From assembly GCA_002271215.1 (NCBI GenBank), contig CP018628.1, positions 2,728,001-2,792,000 of the forward strand: 64,000 bases of DNA, in the 5' to 3' direction. Made by a program: the position numbers and the translations under genes. Each line of letters starts with the position of its first letter. The first letter of the stretch is position 1. Source of the DNA: Lelliottia jeotgali (GTDB taxonomy: Bacteria > Pseudomonadota > Gammaproteobacteria > Enterobacterales > Enterobacteriaceae). The notes below the pieces were generated by a model, which ran no database searches, was not told where the DNA came from, and worked only from the letters and a program-made list of their open reading frames with translations. Shown one piece after another: positions 36,572 through 58,170 of the stretch.

Positions 36572-36647
36572 TCCTCTGTAGTTCAGTCGGTAGAACGGCG
36601 GACTGTTAATCCGTATGTCACTGGTTCGAGTCCAGTCAGAGGAGCCA
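36572..36647 (+). tRNA. tRNA-Asn (GUU)
   Basis: 76-nt tRNA starting TCCTCTGTAGTTCAGTCGG, anticodon GTT in CTGTTAATC, T-arm GGTTCGAGTCC, encoded CCA at 36645-36647. It is identical in form to E. coli asnT/U/V/W; the position beside mtfA corresponds to asnT. It is the integration site of the adjoining element. Confidence 0.98.
36632..36647 (+). other. Probable attachment site (attL) of the integrated element
   Basis: CCAGTCAGAGGAGCCA, the 3' end of tRNA-Asn, is the core used by HPI- and ICEKp-type integrases at asn tRNA genes. The integrase gene begins 161 bp further right. The matching right-end repeat is outside the window, so the boundary is inferred. Confidence 0.7.
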
Positions 36648-36808
36648 TATTCTCGTTTTCATGCCTCTTTGCGAATCCTTATCTAATGTTGGTTCAATAA
36701 GTTAGCGTGAAAAATCTTCCCGATGCATTTTGATTTTACTCTCTGCATCGGAAGAATTTGGTGGTCAGATTTGGGGTCAGTTTGGTTCGATTATGGAGTG
36801 ACCCCCAT

Positions 36809-38077
36809 ATGTCTCTCAACGACACGAAAATCCGCAGTATCAAGCCTTCTGAAAAATCCTTCAAAGTCTCCGATTCACACGGTTTATACCTCCTGGTCAA
36901 TCCAGGCGGCTCACGTCTTTGGTATCTTAAGTATCGAATTAACGGTAAAGAATCCCGCCTTGGCTTAGGCGCTTATCCCGATGTATCCCTTTCCGACGCC
37001 CGGCAACAACGAGACGGTATCCGCAAGTTGCTGGCGCAGAACATTAACCCCGCTCAGCAACGTATAGCCGAAAGAGCCGCCCGCTCACCGGAAAAGGTCT
37101 TTAAGACAGTGGCGCTGGCGTGGCATAAAAGCAATAAAAAATGGTCGCAGAACACCGCCGACCGTCTGCTTGCCAGCATGAACAGGCATATCTTCCCGGT
37201 CATCGGGCATCTGTCCGTTACGGAGCTTAAACCCCGTCATTTCATTGACCTGCTGAAAAGCATTGAGAAAAAAGGTCTGCTGGAAGTCGCGTCCCGCACG
37301 CGGCAGCACCTCTGTAACATCATGCGTCATGCGGTTCATCAGGGATTCATTGACAGCAACCCGGCGGCAAACCTTGACGGCGTGACAGCGCCCCCCGTTA
37401 AGCGCCACTACCCCGCCCTGCCGCTGGAACGCCTGCCGGAATTGCTGGGGCGCATTGATGGTTATCAGCAGGGACGAGAGTTAACCCGTCAAGCGGTCCT
37501 TCTGACCCTTCACCTGTTTATCCGTTCCAGTGAACTGCGTTTCGCCCGATGGAGCGAGTTTGATTTCAGGAACTGTATCTGGACCATCCCCGCTACCCGC
37601 GAAGCTCTTCCCGGTGTTCGTTATTCCGGACGCGGAGCCAAAATGCGCACGCCCCACATTGTTCCATTATCCCGGCAAGCCATCGTTATCCTGAAACAAG
37701 TAGAGGAAATCTCAGGTCATCTGGAACTGGTGTTCCCCGGTGACCATAACCCTTACAGGCCAATGTGTGAAAATACAGTCAACAAGGCACTGCGACTGAT
37801 GGGCTATGACACAAAAATGGACATTTGCGGCCATGGCTTTCGGGCAATGGCATGCAGCGCCTTAATGGAATCCGGACTCTGGTCAAAGGATGCTGTTGAA
37901 CGCCAAATGAGTCATCAGGAACGCAACAGCGTGCGGATAGCTTATATCCACAAAGCTGAACATCTGGAAGCCCGCAAAGCGATGATGCAGTGGTGGTCTG
38001 ATTATCTTTATACATGCCGGGAAAACTATGTTCCCCCATATATATATAGTAAAAATATCAGTCATGAAGCTACCTGA
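36809..38077 (+). CDS. int: P4-type tyrosine integrase
   Basis: Site-specific recombinase for the element in tRNA-Asn. 422 aa from the ATG at 36809; further in-frame upstream codons look non-coding. The N-terminal DUF4102 arm-binding domain (LNDTKIRSIKPSEKSFKVSD ... LGLGAYPDVSL) is followed by a core-binding domain at about 95-190. The catalytic domain has Arg in FIRSSELRFARW, HGFRAMA (His-x-x-Arg) and the Tyr nucleophile in RIAYIHKAEH. Short inverted repeats precede it (GGGGTCA 36773-36779 with TGACCCC 36799-36805), possibly self-regulatory. A strong terminator follows. Confidence 0.95.
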   Translation: MSLNDTKIRSIKPSEKSFKVSDSHGLYLLVNPGGSRLWYLKYRINGKESRLGLGAYPDVSLSDARQQRDGIRKLLAQNINPAQQRIAERAARSPEKVFKTVALAWHKSNKKWSQNTADRLLASMNRHIFPVIGHLSVTELKPRHFIDLLKSIEKKGLLEVASRTRQHLCNIMRHAVHQGFIDSNPAANLDGVTAPPVKRHYPALPLERLPELLGRIDGYQQGRELTRQAVLLTLHLFIRSSELRFARWSEFDFRNCIWTIPATREALPGVRYSGRGAKMRTPHIVPLSRQAIVILKQVEEISGHLELVFPGDHNPYRPMCENTVNKALRLMGYDTKMDICGHGFRAMACSALMESGLWSKDAVERQMSHQERNSVRIAYIHKAEHLEARKAMMQWWSDYLYTCRENYVPPYIYSKNISHEAT

Positions 38078-38104
38078 GTCAGCAAAAAACTAATCAGGAT
38101 TACG

Positions 38105-38147
38105 ATAACAATAGCATCTGACAACGCAGATGCTGTTGTTATTTTTC
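38105..38147 (+). terminator. Intrinsic terminator of the integrase gene
   Basis: ATAACAATAGCATCTG pairs with CAGATGCTGTTGTTAT (one mismatch) and is followed by TTTTT. Confidence 0.88.
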
Positions 38148-38256
38148 TGTATCTTCTTCATGGTATTTCCCCTTCCATTTGTCCTTGTCAGTTGGTATTA
38201 AAATCCGCCCTGTAATTTTAGAACAAAACAATGAGGGGTATGATATTCACAGAGGG

Positions 38257-38649
38257 TTATAACTCATCACGCTTTATACCAGAACTCTTTTTCAGAACAG
38301 GTTTATTCCTTCTGACAGCCCCTGGTGTATGATGCATTTCATTTCTCATCGCTCGGGTAAATACCTGCTGACTGGTAAACCCGAGCATAAAGCACACCTC
38401 TATGACGGGTATATCCGTATTCTCCAGTAAAAAACAAGCACGTCTTAGTTTTTCAAGCTTTATATATTTCCCTAGACTTATTCCTGCCACCTCCTTGAAC
38501 ATCCGTTGAAAATGCCATTTAGAATAACCAGCTTTTGCGGAAACATCCTCAACCTTCAGCGGCTCCTCCAGATGCTCATCAATCCATTGCATAATTTCAT
38601 ACACCACAAGCCGGTTTATATTTTTCTTTCGTATTTTATTTATATCCAT
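38257..38649 (-). CDS. Small AraC/XylS-family regulator (MarA/SoxS/RamA-like)
   Basis: 130 aa from the ATG at 38649, preceded by a G-rich ribosome-binding site. It consists almost only of the two helix-turn-helix motifs (VEDVSAKAGYSKWHFQRMFK and the IPVIEVCFMLGFTSQQVFTR block), like MarA, SoxS, RamA and TetD. It has no ligand-binding domain, so it would act by abundance. It lies 51 nt after cyoD on the same strand, last in the efflux-oxidase gene train. Members of this group activate efflux genes. Confidence 0.88.
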   Translation of the reverse strand: MDINKIRKKNINRLVVYEIMQWIDEHLEEPLKVEDVSAKAGYSKWHFQRMFKEVAGISLGKYIKLEKLRRACFLLENTDIPVIEVCFMLGFTSQQVFTRAMRNEMHHTPGAVRRNKPVLKKSSGIKRDEL

Positions 38650-38700
38650 ATCCCCCCCACAATGAGGCAGTCTGGAATAACAGAAAGACAGCAATCCTTC

Positions 38701-39024
38701 TCATACCATCCGGTGATTAAGATTCCACATGATCCATAACGACCCGGTAATCACGATAAAGATAATGACCGCGGTAAAGACAATAACCACAAGGTTCCAT
38801 CGTGTTTCAGAAGCGGTATTTAGATGCAGGAAATAGATAAGATGCACCAACACCTGAACAACAGCACACACCAGAACGCCTCCCAGGATGGATCCCTCAG
38901 TGGTGCCCCTACCCATAACCAGCCAGAACGGAATTGCAGTCAGCATGACCGACAGGAGAAAACCGGTCATATAAGACTTCACACTGCCGTGCGCGGCCCC
39001 TTCCGTATTTACAGAGTGATTCAT
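38701..39024 (-). CDS. cyoD: Cytochrome bo3 ubiquinol oxidase subunit IV (CyoD)
   Basis: 107 aa (E. coli CyoD 109) with three membrane helices at about 16-36, 42-65 and 76-98. The family block [25 protein letters not shown] is clear. The ATG at 39024 overlaps the cyoC stop (ATGA). Subunit IV assists assembly of the CuB site. It is diverged from a typical chromosomal enterobacterial CyoD, consistent with an accessory, transferred copy. Confidence 0.93.
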
Positions 39025-39638
39025 GACATGACCCCCATCAGGTAAACGATACTGAATACACAAATCCAGATAACATCTAGGAAGTGCCAGAACAGGCTCA
39101 GGCACATAAGACGGGTGCGATTGATCTCAGACAGGTCCCGTCGGGCAATCTGATACATCAGGACCAGCATCCAGATCAGTCCGCAGGTCACATGCAGACC
39201 GTGAGTCCCCACCAGGGTAAAAAGCGCCGACAGAAAGCCACTGTGCTGCGGACCAAAATCCTCAGCAATCAGGTGACTGAACTCCCAGATTTCCATTCCG
39301 ATAAAGCCCAGACCGGACAGAAATGTCAGGGTCAGCCAGCCAAGAACTCCCCCTTCACTGTTTTTGTCCATGCTGATAACGGCAAAACCATAGGCAATCG
39401 AACTCAGCAGAAGCAGTGCGGTTTCCACCAGGACAAACGAGGGTTCGAAGATATCTTTACCCGACGGGCCACCTGCGATGTTGTTTACCATGACGCCATA
39501 AGTCGCGAACAGAGTGGCGAAGATAATGCAGTCGCTCATCAGGTAGATCCAGAAGCCAAAAATCTTACTGTTTCCTGGCTCCTGATGCCCGTGCACTGCA
39601 CGGGCGCGATCAGATGAATGCAGGGCTTCACTTACCAT
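39021..39638 (-). CDS. cyoC: Cytochrome bo3 ubiquinol oxidase subunit III (CyoC)
   Basis: 205 aa (E. coli 204), five helices. Characteristic segments are [35 protein letters not shown] and [14 protein letters not shown], and the end is [18 protein letters not shown]. The start lies within the last 11 nt of cyoB. Confidence 0.95.
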
Positions 39639-41625
39639 ATGTCACACCGGCTTTGCTTATTTCTGCAAAACGCTGATCCTCGATTTTTTGGATCTCGGGC
39701 ACTGGCACATAATAATCCACATCTTCATCGAAACTTTTAATCACCCACGTCAGGATAATCCCGAGGAATGACAAGCCCGCAAGCCACCAGATATGCCAGA
39801 TAGCCCCGAAGCCAAACCCGATACAAAGCAGACCAATAATCAGCCCCGCCCCACTGTTTTTCGGCATATGAATTTCTTCATAGCGGGCTGGCTGTTTGTA
39901 CACGTCGCCTTTTTCCTTCATTTCCCAGAACGCATCACGTTCACGGACAACGGGCACCTCAGCAAAGTTATAGAACGGCGGCGGGGAAGAGGTAGACCAT
40001 TCCAGTGTCCGTCCACCCCACGGGTCCCCGGTCAGGTCACGGTTTTCGTGACGATCGCGCACTGACACCCAGAACATAATGACCTGGCACAGGATCCCAC
40101 AGGCGATCAGCGCTGCACCGCCAGCGGCCACAACCAGCAGGGAATGGAACTGGGGGTCAATATTCTGACTCAGACGGCGGGTCATCCCCATGAACCCCAG
40201 TACATACAGCGGCATAAAGGCCACATAAAAACCAATGATCCAGAACCAGAAAGCCCGCTTGTTCCATTTTTCATTCAGGGTGAAACCTGTCGCTTTCGGG
40301 AACCAGTAGGTCACCCCAGCCATACTGCCGAACACCACCCCGCCGATAATCACATTATGGAAGTGGGCAATCAGGAACAGACTGTTGTGCAGAACGAAGT
40401 CAGCTCCTGGAACAGCCAGCAGGACCCCGGTCATTCCCCCTATGGAGAAAGTGACGATAAAGCCTATTGTCCATAACATGGAAGAGTGCATCTGAATGCG
40501 CCCCTGATACATGGTGAACAACCAGTTGAAGATTTTCACACCCGTCGGGATGGCAATAATCATCGTCATGATCCCGAAGAAGGCATTCACGTTCGCACCG
40601 GCTCCCATGGTAAAAAAGTGATGCAGCCATACCAGAAAGGAGAGCACCGTGATGGCGACCGTTGCCCAGACCAGTGAGGTATAATCGAAAAGGCGTTTTT
40701 TAGAGAAAGTTGCCACCACTTCCGAGTAGATCCCGAAGACCGGCAACACCAGGATATACACTTCCGGATGGCCCCACGCCCAAATCAGGTTGACGTACAT
40801 CATCATGTTGCCGCCCATATCATTGGTAAAGAAATGGAAGCCCAGATAGCGGTCAAGGGTCAGCAATGTCAGCGTGACGGTCAGCACAGGGAAAGAGGCG
40901 ATAATCAGTACGTTGGTACACAACGACGCCCAGGTGAACACCGGCATCTTAAACATCGTCATACCCGGTGCACGCATTTTCAGTATGGTGACGAAGAAGT
41001 TAATCCCGGTCAGTGTGGTCCCGATCCCCGACAGTTGGAGTGTCCATATCCAGTAATCCACCCCGACACCGGGACTGTACGCTAACTCCGAAAGCGGCGG
41101 ATATGCCAGCCAGCCGGTGGTCGCAAACTCCCCCACTCCCAGGCAAAGATTAACCAGCACCACGCCTACCACCGTTAACCAGAAACTCAGGTTGTTCAGG
41201 AAAGGGAAAGCCACATCACGCGCACCAATCTGCAAAGGCACAACAATATTCATCAGGCCGATAACGAAAGGCATCGCCACGAAAAAAATCATGATTACAC
41301 CGTGACCCGTAAAAATTTGATCATAGTGCCAGGGCGGCAGATACCCTGCCCCTTCCACTCCAGATGAGGCCAGTACCTGCTGGCTGCGCATCATGATTGC
41401 ATCGGAAAAGCCGCGCAGTAACATCACAAACGCGACGATGATATACATGATCCCGAGCTTTTTATGGTCAACGGAGGTCAGCCATTCGGACCATAAATAT
41501 TTCCACTTACCGTAATATGTGATGGCAGCAACAATTGCCACACCAAGTATCAGAATAGCAACGATCGTCACCCTGACAATCGGGTCCTCAGGTATGGCAT
41601 CCAGCGTCAGTTTTCCTGTAAGCAT
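39628..41625 (-). CDS. cyoB: Cytochrome bo3 ubiquinol oxidase subunit I (CyoB)
   Basis: Catalytic subunit reducing oxygen to water while pumping protons; binds heme b, heme o3 and CuB. 665 aa (E. coli 663). Quinol-site residues Arg71, Asp75, His100 and Gln103 (E. coli 71, 75, 98, 101), the TGHGVIM heme-b ligand, the D-channel [23 protein letters not shown] (CuB His and Tyr-His crosslink Glu/Tyr), [10 protein letters not shown] (CuB His pair), the K-channel [10 protein letters not shown] and LIAHFHNV (heme ligands) are all intact. It is therefore expected to be functional, using heme O made by the host's own cyoE, which is absent here. Confidence 0.97.
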
Positions 41626-41627
41626 AA

Positions 41628-42554
41628 TTAATTTCCCCGCGCTCTGTGTGAGAGGTGTTGTTCCGGCTCTGACCCAGTCATGCCCGTCTCCTTATCGTGA
41701 TCGTGTGCTTTAAATTTTTTAGTCACGTATCTGAACAGCGTCGGATCGACGACAGAGAAGAATTCAACCGAGTGGTTTTCGTCAGGCTCAGCCAATTTTT
41801 CAAAATCAGCCGGACCAAGCAGCATATCCGGTGATTTCTTCACATCAGCGATCCACTGTTCAAACGCGGTATTATCCGGTACGGCAGTCGCTTTAAATTT
41901 CATGCCGGAAAAGCCCCTGCCGCTGTAACTGGACGAGATTCCATTGAAGGTTCCCGTTTCACCGGCGATCAGATGCAGCCGGGTCTGCATGCCCGGCATC
42001 GCATAAATCTGGCTGCCGAGTGCCGGAATAAAAAAGCCGTTCATCACGGAATTGGATGTAATACGCAAATTCAAGGGGGTATTTATCGGGAATACAATCT
42101 GATTGACGGTGGCAATACCCTGTTGGGGATAAATAAACAACCATTTCCAGTCCAGGGAGATGACTTCGATATCGATGGGTTTCACCGCAGAGGTCAGTGG
42201 CCTGGATGGGTCCAGCGCATGGGTAGACTTCCATGTCAGCACGGCCAGAAACAGAATAATCAGGACGGGCACCGTCCAGACCACCGCCTCCACTTTATTG
42301 GAGTGGGACCAGTCAGGCGTATATTTCGCCGTGGTATTCGTGGCCCGGTATTTCCAGGTAAACACAACTGCCATCAGAACCACAGGAATAACGACCACTA
42401 ACATCAGACAAAATGCCGTAATGATTAGCGCCCGTTGTTCAATAGCGATTTGCCCTTTGGGATCAAGTAAAACGGCATGACATCCGCTCAGTAATAACGT
42501 CCCTGTTATTACCGGCAGGCACTTCACAATGGTCTTATATTTATGATGTCGCAT
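41628..42554 (-). CDS. cyoA: Cytochrome bo3 ubiquinol oxidase subunit II (CyoA)
   Basis: 308 aa (E. coli 315). A lipoprotein signal with lipobox LLLSGC is at the N-terminus, then two helices (about 43-65 and 90-110) and a periplasmic cupredoxin-like domain without the CuA cysteines, as expected for a quinol oxidase. [21 protein letters not shown] and [20 protein letters not shown] are typical. It starts 105 nt after the MFS gene, with no evident terminator between. It is 2 nt from cyoB. Confidence 0.95.
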
Positions 42555-42659
42555 GGGACAACCTCATTTCACGGACTTGCAGACCGGCAATAAATAATGA
42601 AACCTTTTCACGGGGAGACGCTCTGCCCTTCTCATTCCCGCTACCGCCATTCCTGTTAT

Positions 42660-44192
42660 TTAATGGCCCGACATCTTCTGAAGCGGCCCTTTCGGTTTTT
42701 TGATTAGCCAGATAATGCCTATGGACCCCAGCATCAGAACGGTAGCCGACTGATAGAAATCGTTCGTTGCCAGCATGATGGCCTGACTATCGATCATTCT
42801 CGAAAACAGGGCCGCTGACGTGTCTGCCGGAATACCGGTCGCGCCCAGCGTGTTGCTGACAATCCCTGGCACGTCAGGATTGATTGCCGTCACCAGCTCC
42901 GCCCGGTTAAATTTTGTCATATGTTCCCAGTAGGTCTGGGTCAGGGAAGAGCCTACCGCCATGCACATGACACGCAGGAAGTTCTGCAGCCCGGAACCGG
43001 CTGCCACTTTCTCCGGCGGCAGTTCGGACACGCCCAGCGAGGTGAGCGTGATAAGGCAGGCGGGAACTCCGGCCCCCAGAACGAACATGGGAACGGCAAC
43101 TGACATAAAGTCAGCCTGCGACGTCAGCAGGGCACGCATCACAAAGGAGACCGCCAGCACCCCCATGCCATAGCTCACCAGCAGGCGGGGATCGACCTTC
43201 GGCAGCAGACGACCAATTATGGGCGAGCTCAGGACGGCCAGGATCCCCATGGGGCCCGTCGCATACCCGGCCCAGGTTGCCGTGTACCCCATCCATTGCT
43301 GTAACCAGAGGGGGGTCAGCACAATATTCCCGAAGAAAATACCGAACATCAGACAGAGCGTGACGGTTGATACCACCCAGTTACGTGACTTAAACACGCT
43401 CAGATCCAGCACCGGTTGCTCAGCGGTGAGCTCCCAGATAATCAGCGAGATCAGGGCAATAGCGGCCACAATGGCGCAGACAATGATGATATCCGAGGAA
43501 AACCAGTCCAGTTCACGCCCTTTATCCAGCATGATCTGAAAGGCTGCCACAAAGATGACGAGCAGACCCAGCCCCACGCTGTCCAGCCGGGAACGGCTGA
43601 TATGTGTTTCTTTCCCCTTCAGCACCCACCAGGTCCCAAACCCCACAATCAGACCAAAGCCGATATTGATGTAAAATACCCACTGCCAGCTCCAGTTATC
43701 CGAGATAAGCCCACCCAGTATCGGACCGAATATAGGCGCTACTACCGTCATCATTCCCCAGAGCGCCACGGCAATGTTGGCCTGTTTCTTCGGGAAGGCT
43801 GCAAGCAGTAACGTGGAAGAAAGCGGGATCAGCGGGCCACCGGCAAGCCCCTGTAGCACACGGAAAATGGCCAGGCTCGGTAGTGACCAGGAAAGACCGC
43901 AGCAGACAGAAAAAATCACAAATGCAACAACAGAAAAAAGGAATACGCGCACCTGACCGAACTGCATCGCCAACCAGCCGGTCAGCGGCACCGTGATGGC
44001 TTCAGCCACCGCATAGGCGGTGATGATCCAGATTCCTTCTGTTGTCGACACGCCCAGGTAACCGGATATTGTGGGCATCGCGACGTTAGTAATGGTGGTA
44101 TCGAGTACCACCATAAAATTCCCGAGCGAGAGCACGATTGCCGCAACCACCAGTTTGAATCCGGACAGAGGTGGAAATGCTGAACCAGACAT
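42660..44192 (-). CDS. DHA2-family MFS multidrug exporter (EmrB-like)
   Basis: 510 aa with 14 predicted helices, like EmrB (512). It begins with VVLDTTITNVAMPTISGYLG (motif D1) and holds the family signature GPILGGLISDNWSWQWVFYIN (motif C). It would pair with the adjacent membrane-fusion protein and outer-membrane factor to expel hydrophobic compounds across both membranes. It lies 3 nt from the adaptor gene. The substrate cannot be predicted; fatty acids, uncouplers or other hydrophobic acids are typical of EmrAB-type pumps. Confidence 0.92.
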   Translation of the reverse strand: MSGSAFPPLSGFKLVVAAIVLSLGNFMVVLDTTITNVAMPTISGYLGVSTTEGIWIITAYAVAEAITVPLTGWLAMQFGQVRVFLFSVVAFVIFSVCCGLSWSLPSLAIFRVLQGLAGGPLIPLSSTLLLAAFPKKQANIAVALWGMMTVVAPIFGPILGGLISDNWSWQWVFYINIGFGLIVGFGTWWVLKGKETHISRSRLDSVGLGLLVIFVAAFQIMLDKGRELDWFSSDIIIVCAIVAAIALISLIIWELTAEQPVLDLSVFKSRNWVVSTVTLCLMFGIFFGNIVLTPLWLQQWMGYTATWAGYATGPMGILAVLSSPIIGRLLPKVDPRLLVSYGMGVLAVSFVMRALLTSQADFMSVAVPMFVLGAGVPACLITLTSLGVSELPPEKVAAGSGLQNFLRVMCMAVGSSLTQTYWEHMTKFNRAELVTAINPDVPGIVSNTLGATGIPADTSAALFSRMIDSQAIMLATNDFYQSATVLMLGSIGIIWLIKKPKGPLQKMSGH

Positions 44193-44195
44193 ACC

Positions 44196-45395
44196 TTATT
44201 TCTCCGTGTGGTCATCTTTGGCATTCGATGTCAGGTCCACCGTAACTTCCATGGACAGCCCGATGCGCAGAGGATTTTTACGCAGTTCTTCCCGCTCCAG
44301 ACGAACGCGCACCGGCAGTCGCTGCACGACCTTAATCCAGTTACCCGTGGCATTCTGCGCCGGTATCAGTGAAAGCGCGGAACCGGAGCCGCCGTCAAAT
44401 CCCTGAACCACGCCGTGATAAACAACACCGCTGCCGTACAGGTCTGAAGTCAGCTCTACCTTCTGGCCCGGTCTGACGTCGCTGAGCTGACCTTCCTTGA
44501 AATTCGCATCAACATAAATATCCTCGATGGGCACAACCCGCATCAGCCGGTTTCCGGCCTGAACATGCTGCCCGATATCCACTGAGCGCTGTGTTACCAC
44601 TCCATCCACCGGGGCCCGGATAACCATACGCGCCAGGTTTATACGGGCCTGATCGAGACGGGTTCTGGCCGCCACCACAATGGGGTTAGTTTCAACGGTA
44701 CTGTTTAGAAACAGGGCCTCGTTCGCCTGCCGGGATCCTTTTGCTTCGACACTGCCAGCGCGAGCAGCTTTCAGACTGGCTTCCGCTTCTCCCAGCGCGG
44801 CCGTTGCCTCCCGTAATTCTGTCTGCGCATCCGTAAAATCCTGCTCAGATACGGCCCCGGCTTTCACCAGATTCCGGCGACGTCGCTCATCAAGGGTGGC
44901 CTTATCAAACCGGGCCCGTGCCCTCGCCACATCATGTTCGGCGCTCTGAATACCTGCTTCACGCGAATCAAGCTGTCCGCCCAGAGCGGTGTCATTGGCC
45001 ATAATCTGCATCACCTTCCGCCGGGCGCTGCCAAGCTCAGCTTCAGCCTGTGACACCGCAATTCTGGCGTCCGTATCATCAAGCACGACCAGTACATCAC
45101 CGGCATGCACAAGCTGCGTGTTGACCACATTTACTTTCTTCACCGGTCCGCCGACAAGCGGCGTGACGTCTGCGACTTCGGCAGCGGTATAGGCGTTATC
45201 CGTTGAGACGGATTTACCGGCAAAGAAAATCAGCCAGATGGCATAACCGATGGCGATAAGAATCAGGACGCCACCAAACAAAGCGAATAATTTACGGCGA
45301 TGCTTTTTTTTATCACCGCTATCCGGTTTTGCATTCGTGTTATCCAGAGCCCTGTCCATATCCTGTGGGCCGTTTTTATCTTTATCTTCAGTCAT
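44196..45395 (-). CDS. HlyD/EmrA-family membrane fusion protein
   Basis: 399 aa (EmrA 390). Cytoplasmic acidic/basic head, one membrane helix at about 36-56, then the lipoyl half-motifs (VADVTPLVGGPVKKVNVVNT ... VIRAPVDGVVTQRSVDIGQHV) flanking a long Ala/Glu-rich coiled-coil hairpin at about 100-215. The C-terminus is a beta-barrel. It overlaps the outer-membrane factor stop by one base, so the two are co-translated. Confidence 0.93.
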   Translation of the reverse strand: MTEDKDKNGPQDMDRALDNTNAKPDSGDKKKHRRKLFALFGGVLILIAIGYAIWLIFFAGKSVSTDNAYTAAEVADVTPLVGGPVKKVNVVNTQLVHAGDVLVVLDDTDARIAVSQAEAELGSARRKVMQIMANDTALGGQLDSREAGIQSAEHDVARARARFDKATLDERRRRNLVKAGAVSEQDFTDAQTELREATAALGEAEASLKAARAGSVEAKGSRQANEALFLNSTVETNPIVVAARTRLDQARINLARMVIRAPVDGVVTQRSVDIGQHVQAGNRLMRVVPIEDIYVDANFKEGQLSDVRPGQKVELTSDLYGSGVVYHGVVQGFDGGSGSALSLIPAQNATGNWIKVVQRLPVRVRLEREELRKNPLRIGLSMEVTVDLTSNAKDDHTEK

Positions 45396-46894
45396 TACAG
45401 TTTCACCTGCGCATCAAATGTTGAACTGGATTCAAATCCGCCCCCAAGGGCTTTGACGAGTGACACATCCAAGACATAACCCCGGGAATGCATGGCTGTA
45501 TTCGCCAGCTCAGCCTGGAGTAACGCATCTTCAGAAATGAGAACTTCCTGATAATCGGCCAGCCCACCCTGATACCGGGCTTTTGCCAGCTGATAAGCTT
45601 CCTCGCTGTGGGACAAAGCAGATGCGGTTGCTTCTGACCTGCCCACCAGAGCAGCAAGGCTCCGTGTAACATCAGCTGTTTCACGTAATGCCTGTGTCAG
45701 CGCCTCGTTATACGACGCCACCGCATATTCATATTCCGCTCTCGCACCTTTATAGTTAGCGCCTAAACGCCCGCCTTCAAAAAGGGGTAAGCTGATGGCA
45801 GGCCCGACGCTCCCGATATCAGAGCCCGAGCTGAACAGGTTATTCAGCCCCAGTGACTGGTATCCGACGAAGGCCATCAGGTTCACGTTCGGGTAAAACT
45901 GCGCTCTGGCAACACCGATATTGCTGGCGGCGGCTTCAACCCGCCACCGTGCGGCCACCACTTCCGGATTGCGTCCGAGCAGGTTTGCGTTCAGCGCATC
46001 AGGTAATCCGACAGGGCGGCGCATCTGCAACCGGGGTCTGAGGATATCCAGCCCTCTGTCCGGCCCCCGGCCCAGTAAAGCCGCGATGCCGTTTTGGGTT
46101 AATTTGATTTGCTCATCGGCTTCAGCCAGCGCCGCTCTGGCGGCATCCAGCCGGGCACCGCTTTCTTCCACGGAGACTCTGGAATCGAGTCCCTGAGCAT
46201 GGCGTAACTGCACCAGCCTGACGGTATCCGTCCGGTTACGCAGCTGTCGGGCCGCAATATCACGACTGTCATACTGGTACTGCAGACGGATATAAGCGTC
46301 CGCGAGCATCGTCGTCAGCATCAGTTTCGCGGCGGCGGCATCTGCCTCAGCGGCGCTGGCTTCGGATGTCGCGGCACGCAGCGCATCCTGGTTTTTACCC
46401 CAGAAATCCAGTTCCCAGCTAAAGTTGAGGCTGGCCCGCCCCATATCATTCCATCCGTGCGGCACGGCTGTTTTAGGGTAGATGTAGTTGTAGCTGAGCT
46501 TCTCTTTATCAATGGACGCGCTGGCGTCCATTGACGGGTATAACCGGGAACGGGCGACACCGGTTCTGGCCGTGGCTTCACGCACCCGGGCTTCTGCCTG
46601 TGCCAGAGAAGGTGAATGCGCGGTGGCTTCACTCATCAGCTGGTTAAGCTGCGTATCGCCGAAGGCCATCCACCATTTTTCCTGCGGCCAGTCAGCATGT
46701 GGAGCGGAAAAACTGCGTTGTGAAATCAGCGCCGCAGCCTGCTCCGGCTGAGGAGCAGTTCCCAGATCGGGGATCGCAGCACATGACCCCAAAGCAAGGC
46801 TGAGCACGGAGATAACACATCCTTTCAGATAATGCGGACGGTACCTTACTGACTTCGTCCCATGTGCAAATCTGTAACCTGACACACACCTCAT
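45395..46894 (-). CDS. NodT-family outer-membrane efflux factor
   Basis: 499 aa, TolC-like, carrying its own lipoprotein signal (VISVLSLALGSCAAIPDL). Two OEP repeats are seen, with DTQLNQLMSEATAHSPSLAQA and the second-half PEVVAARWRVEAAASNIGVARAQFYPNVNL. The ATG at 46894 is the only ATG near the signal, but the N-terminus is long and a nearby GTG is possible. It is the first gene of the leftward train. A promoter with an embedded operator lies 39-66 bp upstream. Confidence 0.92.
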   Translation of the reverse strand: MRCVSGYRFAHGTKSVRYRPHYLKGCVISVLSLALGSCAAIPDLGTAPQPEQAAALISQRSFSAPHADWPQEKWWMAFGDTQLNQLMSEATAHSPSLAQAEARVREATARTGVARSRLYPSMDASASIDKEKLSYNYIYPKTAVPHGWNDMGRASLNFSWELDFWGKNQDALRAATSEASAAEADAAAAKLMLTTMLADAYIRLQYQYDSRDIAARQLRNRTDTVRLVQLRHAQGLDSRVSVEESGARLDAARAALAEADEQIKLTQNGIAALLGRGPDRGLDILRPRLQMRRPVGLPDALNANLLGRNPEVVAARWRVEAAASNIGVARAQFYPNVNLMAFVGYQSLGLNNLFSSGSDIGSVGPAISLPLFEGGRLGANYKGARAEYEYAVASYNEALTQALRETADVTRSLAALVGRSEATASALSHSEEAYQLAKARYQGGLADYQEVLISEDALLQAELANTAMHSRGYVLDVSLVKALGGGFESSSTFDAQVKL

Positions 46895-46932
46895 TCTTGA
46901 TCGCCCTGTTTATTCTAGTTTATGGCGAACAA

Positions 46933-46960
46933 AGTAAACCGATCGGTTCGGTACAGTCAA
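46933..46960 (-). promoter_or_regulatory. Promoter of the efflux-oxidase operon with TetR operator in the spacer
   Basis: On the minus strand TTGACT (46955-46960) and TTTACT (46933-46938) are 16 bp apart. The perfect 12-bp palindrome AACCGATCGGTT (46937-46948) sits in the spacer and touches the -10, where a bound repressor would block RNA polymerase. A half-site TCGGTTCG here recurs, with one change, in a second operator at 47955-47970. Confidence 0.75.
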
Positions 46961-47079
46961 GGCCAAATTGCACTCAACTACGTCGCAAAAATACGCGAGT
47001 AGCACTCAGGCCTGAACGATATGATTTCGAGTTTCATCTTATGGTAAGATCAAGCTTTATTCCGGATAAGGAAGTGCAG

Positions 47080-47760
47080 ATGTCGGTATCAACAAAGACC
47101 TCAATTGACACTAGAAGAAAAAATAAAATACTTTCTAATGATATAGTTAGTAACTTACCTGAAAAAGCACAACGCGTGCTTGAAGGAGCAAAAGCTATTT
47201 TTCTGGAAAGAGGCTATGCAGCAGCATCAACAGATATGATCCAACAGGCTGCTGGGGTCTCAAAATCAACCGTATATGCATATTATCCGAATAAAGAAGC
47301 ATTATTTACAGCGGTGATTGAGATAGAATGCGAGCGTTTTCTTCAAAAAGTACATAAAATTAAAATTTCGGGAAAAGATATTTATGATAAATTATTTAAA
47401 ATAGCCCGAACGTATCTGGATATTGTGCTTTCTGAAAATGGCCTCGCCCTCTACCGTGTTGTAGCTTCTGAAGCACCGCGTTTTCCTGAATTAGGTAGAC
47501 GTTTCTATTTAGCAGGTCCAGAAAAGATAAATAACATTGTTGCAGAAATACTACAACAAGCTGAATCTAAAGGAGAAATTTCGTTAGGTGGTATTGGGCG
47601 AAATGCAGTTGCTTCCTTATTCGTGAATATGGTACGCGGTGAGCCTCAAATACAGTGCTTAATGCATCCAAAATCTTCCACTTCTGCTGCACAGCGTGAT
47701 CAATGGGCAAAGGATGCGGTCAATGCCTTTTTATTAGCCTTTCGTAAAGGATACTTATAA
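47080..47760 (+). CDS. TetR/AcrR-family repressor of the efflux-oxidase operon
   Basis: 226 aa from the ATG at 47080, preceded by AAGGAAG; longer in-frame extension upstream overlaps the divergent promoter and looks non-coding. The N-terminal helix-turn-helix (FLERGYAAASTDMIQQAAGVSKSTVYAYYPNKEALF) is typical. The C-terminal ligand domain resembles AefR/TetR_C types (LGRRFYLAGPEKINNIVAEI). It is divergent from the outer-membrane factor. The gene is visibly more AT-rich than the cargo it would control, suggesting a different source. Confidence 0.9.
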   Translation: MSVSTKTSIDTRRKNKILSNDIVSNLPEKAQRVLEGAKAIFLERGYAAASTDMIQQAAGVSKSTVYAYYPNKEALFTAVIEIECERFLQKVHKIKISGKDIYDKLFKIARTYLDIVLSENGLALYRVVASEAPRFPELGRRFYLAGPEKINNIVAEILQQAESKGEISLGGIGRNAVASLFVNMVRGEPQIQCLMHPKSSTSAAQRDQWAKDAVNAFLLAFRKGYL

Positions 47761-47923
47761 TCATCTGTTATAAAGAAATTAGAAGATGCTCAGGAGTTTA
47801 TAATATTATCAATTTGTTCCATATTATTATATGGAACACTACCATCAAGTGGATTACATTTTCCGAATCGTTCTTCTCTATAACTCTAGGCGACTAAATT
47901 TAGTTAGCGCCCTAACTTGCCTC

Positions 47924-47970
47924 TTGACAGAAATCTTGTCTATTCTGATCAAATCGAACCGTACCGTTCG
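47924..47970 (+). promoter_or_regulatory. Promoter-like site with a second TetR-type operator
   Basis: TTGACA (47924-47929) is followed at 17 bp by a weak -10 (GATCAA). Just downstream CGAACCGTACCGTTCG (47955-47970) forms a 16-bp near-palindrome with half-sites ACGGTTCG, nearly the same as in the operon promoter. It lies 21 bp before the next ATG, so the same TetR probably controls that gene too. Confidence 0.65.
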
Positions 47971-47991
47971 TTTTAGTCAGGAGACGTTAGC

Positions 47992-48468
47992 ATGATCGGA
48001 GTAGTAAGGTTTTCAGAACTAATGGAGCACTGGGAGGCAATTTCTCTACCAGCACCAGGAAGCATCTATGAGACAAAGCAGCGCTCAAGCAAATGCCTCA
48101 AACATAACCCTTGCAATATAAAAGATTGGATTACTATTGAATTCTCTCAACAGGGATCCTACAAACGAAAATATGAACATTTTCGCCATAAAGATCTTGT
48201 ACTACTACTCTTTATTATTTCTGCTCGACATTTTATTCATAGAGTTTTATCTTCATTAGTCTTAATATTATTCAGTTCATCCTTCATTATGCTCTTAGGA
48301 AATCGTCTCCTCATCCATAGTTACGAGAGAAAATTTCATAGCGAACTAAAAACTAGTTTAACAATTTTATTTTTAAACTCTTTACTTTATAAAATAGGAT
48401 TCATGTGTACATTATCGATAATATTCAGAAATAATGAAACAGTGAATCGTAATTTAAGTTTTGCATAG
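47992..48468 (+). CDS. Hypothetical protein downstream of a TetR-type operator
   Basis: 158 aa, not recognised. A good ribosome-binding site (AGGAG, 7 nt spacing) and an upstream operator-promoter support the start. The first about 55 residues are polar (MIGVVRFSELMEHWEAISLP ...). The remainder is hydrophobic and basic, with possible membrane helices at about 68-101 and 120-145, in very AT-rich DNA. The C-terminal half may be a frame-shifted or decayed remnant. The conserved unit may be only the N-terminus. Confidence 0.45.
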   Translation: MIGVVRFSELMEHWEAISLPAPGSIYETKQRSSKCLKHNPCNIKDWITIEFSQQGSYKRKYEHFRHKDLVLLLFIISARHFIHRVLSSLVLILFSSSFIMLLGNRLLIHSYERKFHSELKTSLTILFLNSLLYKIGFMCTLSIIFRNNETVNRNLSFA

Positions 48469-49247
48469 AAAAATATGTAAAAGGAGTTTTTCATGTTGAA
48501 AAGCAGCGAGATCATAAACGGTTCGCTTCCGAAACCTGACTGGGTAACCATACAAGAAGCCGTTAGCATAATTAATACAGAGAGCAACGAAAGAATCAAA
48601 GAGAGTGATATTTACCGTTATGCATTATATAATAAAATTAATCTCGCCATATACTTTCAATCTCCAATTATTCTGCGAAAAATAAAATATGCATTTCAAA
48701 AAGTAAAAATGCATCCAGCTAGAGGGACATTGATTCATCGTTTATGTCTGCTAGAAAAAAATAGCTTTATTAATGGATGGGACTCAATTTTCAGTACTGA
48801 GGGCAGATACGTCCACTCCACACAAAATATTATTGATACATCACTTATTGGATTTGAATGTATTTTGATAAAGCAATTTCTCGCATGCTCATTGAATATA
48901 CCATTACCAATTATTGGGAAAAACACGGTAAATTATGGCATCACTGTTACAATGTCCAATGAAGTTTTTCAGCTGTTTGAAAAAACAACCTGGAAGTGTA
49001 GAATTGATCATCAAATAAAAAACCTACCAACAGATCTGGCATTTGATATTATGGAGAGAATTTCTTCAGAGGGAACGATAAATCAAAATACAAAGCAAGA
49101 ATATTTCCCCCTCTATAATTTGCCTCAGGATTCCTGCTTTGTTATTCGTTACTCAGAGATTGAGAAACTAATTAGCACCCAGGTTACAGAGAAATCCCTC
49201 CCCTCTTCAACCAGAATATCCACGCCCTTGTCGGTAATGACTCCAAC

Positions 49248-49751
49248 TTACTGATAGTGTTTTATGTTCAGATAATGCCCGATGACCTTGTCATGCAGCT
49301 CCACCGATTTTGAGAACGACAGTGACTTCCGTCCCAGCCTTGCCAGATGTTGTCTCAGATTCAGGTTATGTCGCTCAATGCGCTGAGTGTAACGCTTGCT
49401 GATAACGTGCAGCTTTCCCTTCAGGCGGGATTCATACAGCGGCCAGCCATCCGTCATCCATACCACGACCTCAAAGGCCGACAGCAGGCTCAGAAGTCGC
49501 TCCAGTGTGGCCAGAGTGCGTTCACCGAAGACGTGCGCCACAATCGTCCTCCGTATCCTGTCATACGCGTAAAACAGCCAGCGCTGACGTGATTTAGCAC
49601 CGACGTAGCCCCACTGTTCGTCCATTTCAGCGCAGACAATCACATCACTGCCCGGCTGTATGCGCGAGGTTACCGACTGCGGCCTGAGTTTTTTAAGTGA
49701 CGTAAAATCGTGTTGAGGCCAACGCCCATAATGCGGGCGGTTGCCCGGCAT
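49248..49751 (-). CDS. insB: IS1 transposase frame B (InsB)
   Basis: 167 aa, DDE-type catalytic part of the IS1 transposase ([51 protein letters not shown]). It is expressed as an InsAB fusion by a -1 frameshift at A6C (minus strand, 49688-49694). It starts inside insA. Confidence 0.96.
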
Positions 49752-49945
49752 CCAACACCATTCATGGCCATATCAATGATTTTCTGGTGCGTACCGGGTT
49801 GAGAAGCGGTGTAAGTGAACTGCAGTTGCCATGTTTTACGGCAGTGAGAGCAGAGATAGCGCTGATGTCCGGCAGTGCTTTTGCCGTTACGCACCACCCC
49901 GTCAGTAGCTGAACAGGAGGGACAGCTGATAGAAACAGAAGCCAC
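49670..49945 (-). CDS. insA: IS1 InsA repressor/DNA-binding protein
   Basis: 91 aa with a zinc-finger-like N-terminus ([20 protein letters not shown] ... [10 protein letters not shown]) and a helix-turn-helix ([20 protein letters not shown]). Alone it represses transposition; by frameshift it forms InsAB. Confidence 0.96.
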
Positions 49946-50240
49946 TGGAGCACCTCAAAAACACCATCATACACTAAATCAGTAAGTTGGCAGCATCACC
50001 GCCCTTGTCAAGGTTATTTTGGCTCGCTTGTAGGCACAATGATGTTATCAGCCCATTAATAAAACAACCCTATAAATTATTGACAATTTTTGAAGAATGG
50101 GCGGCAGCTGATGGCATCACTGACCGTCTAAGCGGTGATACTTTAAAAACAGCACTAGAGCGTGGTTCCCCTCCTTCCTCATCCTTATTAAATTGATATT
50201 GTGTTTATCTGTCAATAATATGATCCCGTATTTAGTTTAT

Positions 50241-51827: not shown

Positions 51828-52049
51828 ATGCGAAAACCCCTATATCACGTCTTTATCACTCAGGAAAGTCAGCCCGATGCACAGGGCGAGAAAAACACGT
51901 ACTGGACCCGGGTTGGTGTGGCCTTCGCACATAACGGTAAGCCTGGCCTGAATATCGTGCTGATCCCCGGTATTGCGGTTTCCGGCAGGCTGGTACTGCT
52001 CGAACCGAGAGAAGAGAGTGACATTTCACAGAATGCCGCAGCCGTTTAA
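51828..52049 (+). CDS. Small conserved-looking protein before virB1
   Basis: 73 aa, not recognised. AGAGGAAAAATC precedes the ATG. It is a soluble, beta-rich protein (YHVFITQESQPDAQGEKNTY, GVAFAHNGKPGLNIVLIPG) with no signal peptide. Small proteins of this type are common at the head of ICE and plasmid transfer operons. No function proposed. Confidence 0.7.
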   Translation: MRKPLYHVFITQESQPDAQGEKNTYWTRVGVAFAHNGKPGLNIVLIPGIAVSGRLVLLEPREESDISQNAAAV

Positions 52050-52119
52050 CCCGCTTTTGTCCTTCTCCCCGGTAACGTGTTTTTGTGTACGCTGCCGGAC
52101 CCACGGTTACGAGGCCACT

Positions 52120-52764
52120 ATGCTTTCCACCACAGCCTTTCTGGCGCTGGCGACGCAGTGCGCCATCACTGTTCACCCGTCCACGGCGCTTGATGTGGCA
52201 CGGGTCGAATCCGGTTTTCACCCTTACGCCATTGCTGAAATCGTGCCGGGCGGCAAAGGTGTGATTTCACATTTTCCCACGAGCCTGCCGGAGGCGATCC
52301 ACCTCACCAGACAGCTGGCTGCACAAGGCCGACACTATTCGGTCGGCCTGATGCAAATCACCAGCACCAATTTCCGCCATTACGGCGTCACGGCCAGCGA
52401 CCTGCTTAACCCTTGCATCAACCTGTCGGTATTTGAGCGCATTTTCGCCGACTGCTACCGGCGCGGCAGAACGCTGAAACGGGCGCTCAGTTGTTACTAC
52501 TCCGGCAACTTTGAAACCGGACAGCGACCGGAATCCACCTTTAACCAGACCAGCTACGTACAGCGCATTGGCTATGTCGTCCCGTCCACGCGGGAAGACC
52601 GTCAGCGTGACCCTGACCGGAATGCACAGCTGTCTGTCCGTTATCCCGCCGTTGTGCTGCGCGGCGCGCCTACCGGTGCCACTGCGCCGGTCCCGACTTC
52701 CCTGCAGTATCCCGGTTCCGTCATTCGCGGCGCTATCCCTGTTATCCCTGATGAGGAGAAATGA
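52120..52764 (+). CDS. virB1: T4SS lytic transglycosylase VirB1
   Basis: 214 aa. Goose-type lysozyme/transglycosylase fold with catalytic Glu in DVARVESGFHPYAI (about residue 28) and the RHYSVGLMQITSTNFRHYGV substrate loop. Opens gaps in peptidoglycan for T4SS assembly. The ATG at 52120 is chosen because the upstream in-frame extension lacks similarity. The stop overlaps virB2 by 4 nt (ATGA). Confidence 0.93.
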   Translation: MLSTTAFLALATQCAITVHPSTALDVARVESGFHPYAIAEIVPGGKGVISHFPTSLPEAIHLTRQLAAQGRHYSVGLMQITSTNFRHYGVTASDLLNPCINLSVFERIFADCYRRGRTLKRALSCYYSGNFETGQRPESTFNQTSYVQRIGYVVPSTREDRQRDPDRNAQLSVRYPAVVLRGAPTGATAPVPTSLQYPGSVIRGAIPVIPDEEK

Positions 52765-53039
52765 TCATGCGTAAACGCCGTTACTCCGCTGTTGCTTCCG
52801 TGCTGCTGTCTGCCCCGGTGCTGGCGGCAGACAGTGGTTTTAACAAGGCCAATGAAACACTGAGCAATACCTCGACCGGCCTGCTGGGACTGGCCGCCGT
52901 CACCATCACACTGGCGACTATGTGGGTTGGCTACAAGGTGCTGTTCGACGGCAAGAGCCTGCATGACATGCGTAACATCATCATCGGCGCGATCCTGATT
53001 GTCGGCGCGTCCGGCTTCGGTGCCTACTGGGCGTCATAA
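52761..53039 (+). CDS. virB2: T4SS major pilin VirB2
   Basis: 92 aa TrbC/VirB2 pilin precursor. A signal peptide ends in VLAA at about 23, followed by two hydrophobic helices (TGLLGLAAVTITLATMWVG and NIIIGAILIVGASGFGAYW) with a short charged loop (FDGKSLHDMR). Confidence 0.93.
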   Translation: MIMRKRRYSAVASVLLSAPVLAADSGFNKANETLSNTSTGLLGLAAVTITLATMWVGYKVLFDGKSLHDMRNIIIGAILIVGASGFGAYWAS

Positions 53040-53050
53040 GGGAGGCAACG

Positions 53051-55798: not shown

Positions 55799-55820
55799 AA
55801 GCCAACAGGAGGTAATATCA

Positions 55821-56549
55821 ATGCGTACCCGGGATCATCTTCTGGCATTATTGTTATTTTTCTCGACGCAGGCATTCAGCGCCGGAATACCGGTTTTCGA
55901 TGCCGTGCAGAATACCGAATCCATTAATCAGTGGATGCAGAAACTACAGCAATGGGAGGATACGGTTACCCATTATAAAAGTGAACTTGATGCGTATAAA
56001 AAGCAACTGGCTACCGCAACCGGTGTGCGGGATATTCAGGGTTTTCTCAGAGATACCAGAAGCCTGAAAACCGATATTGATAATCTCCGTAAGAGCGGTA
56101 TTTCACTGGATGAACTGCTGACCACGCAGAACAGTTCATATTCTGCTGAACTGCAAAACCTTTACAGTAAATACAAATCGTTCAGCGTATGCAGCCCGGA
56201 ACAGGAAAGAATAAAATCTCAGGCTCTGGCCGACAGTTGCAAACAGATAATCCTCAATCAGGCAATGGCGATTGAGAATACCACCGACGTTGAAAACAGG
56301 ATCAACAGCACACTCAGCGATATATCAGACTTATCCGATCGTATATCGAATGCACAGGACTCGAAAGAGTCTCAGGATCTGGCTAACACCATCGCGGCGA
56401 AAAGCGTACAGTTAAATGCGCTGACGAATCAGTGGGAGATGTCTGTCAGACAGGCTGAACAGCGAACGACATTGCTGGAACAGCAAAGACACAAAGCCTT
56501 TGAACAGCAGCAGCTAACGGCACCTGTTGCTGACCTTAATAATTTATAA
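55821..56549 (+). CDS. virB5: T4SS minor pilin/adhesin VirB5
   Basis: 242 aa from the ATG at 55821, which follows AGGAGG. Signal peptide LLALLLFFSTQAFSA; mature protein is mostly helical coiled coil (NTESINQWMQKLQQWEDTV), as in TraC/VirB5. It sits at the pilus tip in characterised systems. Confidence 0.92.
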   Translation: MRTRDHLLALLLFFSTQAFSAGIPVFDAVQNTESINQWMQKLQQWEDTVTHYKSELDAYKKQLATATGVRDIQGFLRDTRSLKTDIDNLRKSGISLDELLTTQNSSYSAELQNLYSKYKSFSVCSPEQERIKSQALADSCKQIILNQAMAIENTTDVENRINSTLSDISDLSDRISNAQDSKESQDLANTIAAKSVQLNALTNQWEMSVRQAEQRTTLLEQQRHKAFEQQQLTAPVADLNNL

Positions 56550-56560
56550 GGAGGTTATCC

Positions 56561-56836
56561 GTGCTCAGATCCTTATTCACCTTATACACACTCTCAGGCG
56601 TGATATTACTGTCCGGCTGCAAAGAAACCAAATCCGAGGCCTGGTATAAGCAGCATCCTGACGAAACTTATGCGGTTTATACGCAATGCCTGAAGGAGGG
56701 TGAAGCAAGTGATAACTGCGAATTTGCCCACCGGGCAGCACTTATGTTCGCACAGGAAGGCCAGCCCGGGGTTAAGGAGAAATTTGAGGCGATATTTCAG
56801 CAGGAAGCTGAAAAACGAAATGCTGTGACACAGTAA
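56561..56836 (+). CDS. eexN: EexN-family entry-exclusion lipoprotein
   Basis: 91 aa from a GTG start, with lipobox VILLSGC at about 20. The mature part follows the EexN pattern (WYKQHPDETYAVYTQC, GEASDNCEFAHRAA). Expected to prevent redundant transfer between cells carrying the same element. A terminator-like hairpin follows it, inside the operon. Confidence 0.88.
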   Translation: MLRSLFTLYTLSGVILLSGCKETKSEAWYKQHPDETYAVYTQCLKEGEASDNCEFAHRAALMFAQEGQPGVKEKFEAIFQQEAEKRNAVTQ

Positions 56837-56849
56837 TTTTTCCTCCAGC

Positions 56850-56876
56850 AAAACAGGGAATTCTCCCTGTTTTTTA
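56850..56876 (+). terminator. Intra-operon terminator between eexN and virB6
   Basis: AAAACAGGGA pairs with TCCCTGTTTT and is followed by a T tract. It lies between eexN and virB6, so it may lower expression of virB6-virB11 relative to the first genes. Confidence 0.75.
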
Positions 56877-56907
56877 TTTCCTTTCTTTATATATCAGGTG
56901 AGGCACC

Positions 56908-57939: not shown

Positions 57940-58029
57940 TCCTCCCGACCCTTAATTTCCTTTCCCCGTCACGCCGTGGCCTGCGCCACCGGTGCGGCAT
58001 TCCTGCATCCATACGATAAGGGGGCTTCC

Positions 58030-58170
58030 ATGAAATTCAGCATCTTCCTTCTGATGCTGTGCGCGCTCACGGGCTGCGCACGGCATCAGGGCGACCTTCC
58101 GCCGGTATCCGGCGAACCCGAGCCGGTGAATTCCCCCGCCATCATTCAGGAGCTGACTCACCATGTCTGA
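58030..58170 (+). CDS. virB7: VirB7-like lipoprotein
   Basis: 46 aa. Signal peptide and lipobox LCALTGC (lipidated Cys at about 16), then a short Pro-rich tail (DLPPVSGEPEPVNSPAII). Its size, position between virB6 and virB8, and lipobox match VirB7, which stabilises VirB9. The stop overlaps virB8 by 8 nt. Confidence 0.85.
   Translation: MKFSIFLLMLCALTGCARHQGDLPPVSGEPEPVNSPAIIQELTHHV

Follow-up and report, generated by a model that had tools for sequence, protein, structure and literature searches.

A module spanning positions 38257-47760 of a 64,000-nucleotide stretch of the Lelliottia jeotgali genome (contig CP018628.1, forward-strand positions 2,728,001 to 2,792,000; here called the window) joins the genes of a tripartite efflux pump to a set of cytochrome bo3 oxidase genes additional to the host's own. 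Eight co-directional genes lie on the minus strand in the order nodT-emrA-mfs-cyoA-cyoB-cyoC-cyoD-araC. They encode a NodT/VceC-type outer-membrane factor (45395-46807; the longest open reading frame [ORF] extends to 46894), an EmrA/HlyD-type periplasmic adaptor (44196-45395), a DHA2/EmrB-type pump of the major facilitator superfamily (MFS; 42660-44192), bo3 subunits II (cyoA, 41628-42554), I (cyoB, 39628-41625), III (cyoC, 39021-39638), and IV (cyoD, 38701-39024; the longest ORF reaches 39105), and a small AraC-type regulator with a MarA/SoxS/Rob-like DNA-binding domain (38257-38649; longest ORF to 38694). Divergent from them on the plus strand is tetR (47080-47760), encoding a TetR-family regulator with an AefR-like C-terminal domain (PF14246). 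The gene starts used here are the shorter ones annotated in Escherichia coli KFu022, namely 46807 for nodT, 39024 for cyoD, and 38649 for araC. An original prediction made from the sequence alone had placed the eight leftward ORFs at these positions and in these families, and both the ORF positions and the profile scores agree with it.

The genes are tightly packed. nodT and emrA share 1 base, emrA and mfs are separated by 3 bp and cyoA and cyoB by 2 bp, and cyoB overlaps cyoC by 11 bp and cyoC overlaps cyoD by 4 bp. The only larger gaps, as had been predicted, are the 105 bp between mfs and cyoA (42555-42659, minus strand, where by eye a GAGGT precedes the start codon) and the 51 bp between cyoD and araC. 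The prediction had seen no terminator in either, and a pattern scan returned neither a terminator-like nor a minus-strand promoter-like match in the two gaps, its totals being near chance (11 terminators against 9.4 expected and 16 promoters against 10.7 expected). Because the gaps are free of terminator-like matches and the window scan found no operator copy ahead of cyoA, transcription may run on from the pump genes into cyoABCD and araC. The same scan, near chance overall, also picked up a terminator-like hairpin (38104-38143) that separates araC from the neighboring integrase gene and has T-rich tails on both strands; it is a candidate end of the module transcript.

The whole module recurs in E. 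coli KFu022, isolated from river water in Japan, at 95.5% identity over 100% of its length, in the same element at tRNA-Asn and with no gene flagged as broken. KFu022 was the only 1 of 5,426 E. coli genomes to hold at least 80% of the module. The ratios of nonsynonymous to synonymous substitution (dN/dS) between window and KFu022, calculated for the eight genes other than tetR, were 0.13 for cyoA, 0.06 for cyoB, 0.14 for cyoC, 0.21 for cyoD, 0.04 to 0.15 for the pump genes, and 0.20 for araC. Since the entire unit persists in this second element with dN well below dS, the gene arrangement is more than chance. The two regulators, tetR (38% GC) and araC (40% GC), are AT-rich next to the remaining module genes (51 to 58% GC), which suggests that the module was assembled from several sources. 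From the araC N terminus to mid cyoB (38600-40750), window and KFu022 are 70 to 95% identical per 100 bases, against mostly 95 to 100% elsewhere; this stretch probably represents replacement by a diverged cyo segment of the type carried on the element.

The element itself resembles an integrative and conjugative element (ICE). A tyrosine integrase gene (36758-38077, plus strand) adjoins its integration site, a tRNA-Asn(gtt) gene (36572-36647, plus strand), and VirB-type conjugation genes, from a lytic transglycosylase gene to virB11, form the backbone at 51973-62055 on the plus strand. The last 15 bases of the tRNA gene (36633-36647) recur as a direct repeat 48.8 kb rightward, beyond the window, so that the element is probably about 49 kb long, and the pump-oxidase module makes up most of its cargo. 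In KFu022, a 17-base search found tRNA copies on the left only, with no right-hand copy in the stretch read. The right part of the element was also used as a query, and 76% of it is present at about 92% identity in four further E. coli records. Two of these four were opened, and both have an integrase gene at tRNA-Asn and different cargo in the same slot: genes for a LysR regulator, leuCD-like products, a protein of the fumarylacetoacetate hydrolase family, an alpha/beta hydrolase, and an MFS protein. This alternative cargo (L154, 14860-21522) resembles an organic-acid catabolic set and has the appearance of one pathway. As the alignment with a related E. coli element breaks at 38044-50016 and the opened elements carry other cargo there, the variable part comprises nodT to araC with tetR, small ORFs, and an IS1 copy. 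The IS1 copy (49233-50001) is not at the corresponding place in KFu022. As annotated, the right part of the KFu022 element (L159, 2554-10466) holds a SIR2-family gene beside a gene for an ATP-binding protein and the Qat anti-phage system.

The pump genes form a tripartite set of the VceCAB/EmrAB type, encoding outer factor, adaptor, and EmrB-type MFS protein together. The outer factor scored above the TIGR01845 (NodT) cutoff and the MFS protein above that of TIGR00711 (EmrB-type DHA2); the adaptor was best matched by TIGR00998 (EmrA-type), at 353.7 bits, below the cutoff of 390.8. The closest solved relative of the MFS protein is EmrB (8zal; 8e-136), and that of the outer factor is 1yc9 (1e-110), listed as a multidrug resistance protein, which we take to be VceC of Vibrio cholerae. 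According to a review (PMC6780985), the uncoupler carbonyl cyanide m-chlorophenylhydrazone is a compound to which EmrAB and VceCAB respond or against which they protect, and rhizobial RmrAB and EmrAB, which are TetR controlled, answer flavonoids.

The relatives of the module's TetR point in the same direction as the pump relatives. Between nodT and tetR lies the palindrome AAACCGATCGGTTCGGT (46936-46952, plus strand), a candidate TetR operator. It sits in the 16-bp spacer region between a -35-like TTGACT and a -10-like TTTACT on the minus strand, promoter elements that were assigned by eye, and KFu022 has an identical palindrome between its nodT and tetR. The same box within TTGAC(T/C)-N16-TTTA also precedes pumps with 71%-identical MFS proteins in two Pseudomonas loci (L145 and L146) and a Burkholderiaceae locus (L156), the last having two copies of the box core. 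That 12-base core, AAACCGATCGGT, occurs once in the 4.6-Mb host genome, and its reversed control does not occur. The TetR gene and the box are found together in the window, KFu022, L146, and L156, the window TetR being 66% identical to the L156 regulator and 53% identical to that of L146; a TetR of the window type was not found in three relatives checked. The best solved TetR relatives are 6g87/6g8h (3.5e-28), 8wrf, 3bhq, and NalC (8ke8; 1.6e-15), of which 6g87 is presumably the flavonoid-responsive FrrA and NalC a protein that binds chlorinated phenols. An excerpt of PMC4070704, which does not extend to the link with the 6g87 structure, describes FrrA as a TetR regulator beside FreCAB, there termed an RND pump, and as one that may act with genistein. 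The sequence strongly suggests that the pump promoter is held in check by the divergent TetR acting at the box, and that the ligand lifting this repression is small and hydrophobic, probably a phenolic. Apart from the exact box, the window has one match with three mismatches, at 47958 (chance expectation for such matches, 0.17). This operator-like sequence (47958-47974, minus strand) overlaps the palindrome CGAACCGTACCGTTCG downstream of tetR and may control something to the right of the module. The AraC-type protein is a relative of MarA, SoxS, and Rob; it is nearest to RobA (111.8 of 380 bits), RamA (109.5 of 180), SoxS, and MarA, and stays far below their equivalog cutoffs.

CyoA to CyoD score above the cutoffs of TIGR01433, TIGR02843, TIGR02842, and TIGR02847, with NF007816 (CyoA) and NF007944 (CyoC) just missed. 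CyoB retains H106, H284, Y288, H333, H334, H411, H419, H421, D135, E286, K362, and T359, residues of haem and copper ligation and of the D and K proton channels. The oxidase is complete and under purifying selection, and it is probably a working enzyme. In trees of two parts of CyoB, built from 35 hand-picked rows of 205, the ICE lineage joins Erwinia, Pantoea, and their kin (support 95/87 and 100/95) and the host sequence lies elsewhere. Given the tree placement, the dN/dS values, and the intact residues, we conclude that the oxidase is constrained and probably functional and that its probable origin is capture from a source resembling the Erwiniaceae. The prediction had also supposed that, with no cyoE in the unit, haem O must come from the host. 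Neither the window nor the 32 kb to its right yielded a cyoE, and the host chromosomal cyo locus, which is 94.2% identical to that of Lelliottia nimipressuralis (L010), has a cyoE whose product is 94% identical to K-12 CyoE, so that a haem O supply is present.

The carriage of a pump and a spare oxidase as co-cargo suggests a transferable defense against poisons of energy metabolism. Tentatively, and at slightly less than an even chance, we propose that the module provides an inducible defense against a phenolic or uncoupler-type respiratory poison, acting by export and re-energization, where the functional link between the two halves is one that we infer. A phenolic or hydrophobic ligand would release TetR from the box in the pump promoter, and transcription would proceed from the pump genes into cyoABCD and araC. 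The NodT-EmrA-EmrB pump, driven by the proton gradient, would expel the poison, and the extra proton-pumping bo3 oxidase, outside host cyo control and using host haem O, would sustain the gradient drained by poison and pump alike. In addition, the host's efflux response might be recruited through the MarA/SoxS/Rob-like protein. The original prediction had the unit, induced through TetR, expel a quinol-site or terminal-oxidase poison and supply a less sensitive oxidase. The single gene train, the divergent TetR gene, and the likely operator in the pump promoter bear out part of that interpretation, and the relatives of pump and sensor indicate phenolic weak acids and uncouplers, some classic uncouplers being such acids, with no less weight than quinol-site inhibitors; other hydrophobic respiratory poisons would fit as well.

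Several observations weigh against the defense that we propose. The substrate class rests on family resemblance, including the presumed ligand links of 6g87 and NalC, and a weak promoter could lie within the 105-bp gap. Since cyoABCD and cyoE are already present in the host, an additional set has to be distinguished by its timing or by some property. No box was found ahead of the 69%-identical pumps of L117 and L118, whose promoter sequence differs, and no TetR gene of the module's kind was recognized at L145, though the box is present there. All five pump loci outside the ICE (L117, L118, L145, L146, and L156; pumps 69 to 71% identical, about 19 kb read) are without cyo genes; these lie on the plasmids Sphingobium pCHQ1 and Tardibacter pHSL1, in two Pseudomonas, and in one member of the Burkholderiaceae. 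Conversely, none of 80 cyo loci, read for up to 10 kb on each side with some cut short by contig ends, has a pump of the module's kind, the best ORF in them reaching at most 184 bits to either MFS query, against 786 to 822 for the relatives in L145, L146, and L156. The nearest arrangement, in a P. aeruginosa plasmid record (L121, 7768-15555), speaks for the proposal in having a divergent TetR gene, an MFS gene, and then cyoABCDE on one strand, and against it in that its MFS protein is 29% identical, has neither adaptor nor outer factor, and is encoded 626 bp from cyoA. Thus, with respect to the distribution of the gene order, the whole order is kept in KFu022, but outside the ICE, pump and oxidase are apart, a separation that counts in part against the original prediction, and because they occur apart elsewhere, their pairing is a feature of this element lineage in the loci examined.

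In species-level draws of 392, 394, 369, 249, 249, and 17 genomes, with one genome per species, strict MFS thresholds returned the host's own genome, three pumps at 71%, and one at 47%; in the 392-genome draw, the only full-length DNA match was the host's own genome. No plasmid record covers 80% of the module, and viral contigs gave no MFS relative and a single 45% CyoA match. Protein clusters of 197 (MFS), 89 (CyoA), and 138 (CyoB) members, which are not counts of genomes, suggest that there are more carriers. At L156 (1-13869), a full nodT-emrA-mfs-TetR relative sits near ORFs that by eye resemble Trb conjugation genes, so that the pump may be mobile elsewhere too. In Tardibacter pHSL1 (L118, 4094-4474), a lone gene annotated as sdhC, for the cytochrome b556 subunit of complex II, adjoins the TetR genes of the homologous pump, a possible parallel of a pump accompanied by a respiratory part. 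MFS genes also stand near cyo genes in Snodgrassella (L025), where one scoring 97 bits lies 1.3 kb ahead of cyoA in the same direction, and in Stenotrophomonas (L044), where one scoring 184 bits against the P. aeruginosa MFS protein lies past cyoD.

An alternative to export with re-energization is target bypass, in which the poison blocks the quinol site of the host bo3, the pump lowers its concentration, and the altered ICE oxidase keeps respiring. We compared the ICE CyoB with 83 other rows, comprising the 80 cyo loci, the host, K-12, and P. aeruginosa (E. coli numbering throughout). W97, adjoining the quinol-binding H98, is occupied in the other rows by H (54), E (28), or Q (1); G105 and C159 replace an Ala and a Ser, respectively, present in 83 of 83 rows; S74 is shared with 14 of the 83 and with none of 19 picked Enterobacterales rows; D14 is shared with 5; and the loop preceding the H98 helix is longer than in the enterobacterial rows shown. 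W97, G105, and C159 are specific to the ICE lineage: among 205 rows, only three proteins have them, those of the window, KFu022, and cluster P0242, and each is ICE-type. The first 280 CyoB residues are identical in window and KFu022 at a dS of 0.094. All of these features favor a bypass. So does the binding of a bo3 inhibitor within the quinol site at R71/D75, where it occupies the space that separates transmembrane helix TM0 from TM1-3 (PMC9731990). The quinol site is defined by R71, D75, H98, and residue 101 in an excerpt of PMC10256718, and R71, D75, H98, and Q101 are all unchanged in the ICE CyoB, which argues against a bypass. The prediction of intact redox, quinol, and proton-channel residues in CyoB thus stands for every residue checked, with the qualification that positions beside the quinol site (W97 and G105) are unusual. 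In 200 of the 205 aligned CyoB rows (the fused or odd-length P0241, P0243, P0249, P0251, and P0252 being dropped), private residues of the ICE CyoB are not significantly enriched near that site, 2 of 10 lying within 8 positions of a quinol-binding residue (P = 0.13) and at least 2 doing so in 6 of 197 other rows. Since this clustering is not significant, the changes at the quinol site are not taken as proof of an altered target. Enterobacteria also possess bd oxidases, which likewise speaks against a bypass. We regard target bypass as unlikely, though deserving of serious weight. The fuller version, in which a poison sensed by TetR would be pumped out while a proton-pumping bo3 variant of the W97/G105 lineage that had evolved insensitivity takes the place of the blocked quinol oxidase, all from one transcript and spread by conjugation, appears rather doubtful.

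That the slot simply holds two unrelated cargoes, one operon for the pump and one for the oxidase, each with its own promoter and brought together by chance, would fit the separate occurrence of the two halves in the loci examined, the deviant GC content of tetR and araC, and a 105-bp gap long enough for a promoter. It accords poorly with the persistence of genes and order in two elements from different species with eight genes constrained, with the lack of a coding-strand promoter-like match in that gap, and with the one-pathway appearance of the cargo in the two opened related elements, and we consider it distinctly unlikely. A nondrug stress on the oxidase, such as copper, acid, or redox cycling signaled through the SoxS/Rob-like protein, draws on the best scores of that protein to RobA, RamA, SoxS, and MarA, but it is very improbable, as the MFS protein is of the DHA2/EmrB type, the regulator with a candidate operator is a TetR, and the gene content of nine proteins scanned includes no recognized copper-export or redox-defense system beyond generic adaptor and outer-factor domains that pumps of those systems also have.

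Our preferred reading, export coupled to re-energization, can be set beside known systems. VceCAB-VceR of V. cholerae and EmrAB of E. coli resemble the module in outer factor, adaptor, and EmrB-type MFS protein, and VceCAB is under a TetR-like repressor, as is predicted for the module. They differ in that here cyoABCD and araC follow the pump and the set lies on an ICE-like element; neither VceCAB nor EmrAB is known to be accompanied by oxidase genes. With cyoABCDE of E. coli K-12 and the Erwiniaceae, the module shares the CyoA to CyoD equivalogs, their order, and the checked catalytic residues, but it has no adjacent cyoE, carries lineage-only residues, has TetR and pump genes upstream, and is mobile. 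The P. aeruginosa set, presumably PA1315-PA1321 of PAO1, is alike in a single record in having divergent TetR, MFS, and cyo genes in that order with the latter two on one strand, and it differs in its distant MFS protein, the missing adaptor and outer factor, the longer gap, and the presence of cyoE. Elements of the ICEKp and high-pathogenicity island type, with the first of which we presume a kinship, likewise have an integrase at tRNA-Asn, a cargo slot, and a VirB-type system, but carry yersiniabactin genes or a leuCD-type set rather than a pump and an oxidase. PFGI-1 of P. fluorescens Pf-5 is, like the module's element, a mobile island with a named cyoABCD cluster, and its authors refer to a crucial role of cytochrome o where toluene tolerance relies on proton-dependent efflux (PMC2647930), a link that favors our reading; the host and island are different, and the passage concerned does not name an adjacent pump. 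A partial literature search returned no title on an ICE carrying cyo genes and an EmrAB-type pump.

Resistance elements are known carriers of pumps, of enzymes, and of protected targets. An entire proton-pumping respiratory complex traveling as co-cargo with a pump would show that bacteria exchange the means of energy supply along with those of efflux. Whether proton-driven efflux is limited by terminal oxidases can be tested with the module, a natural unit that can be removed as one piece. If the oxidase were instead an insensitive replacement, the module would pair export with replacement of the target, here a terminal oxidase, and conjugation would spread both. Because a mobile second oxidase exists, the finding is relevant to bo3 inhibitors as antibacterials, and it suggests that environmental Enterobacterales may meet a poison of energy metabolism in their habitats.

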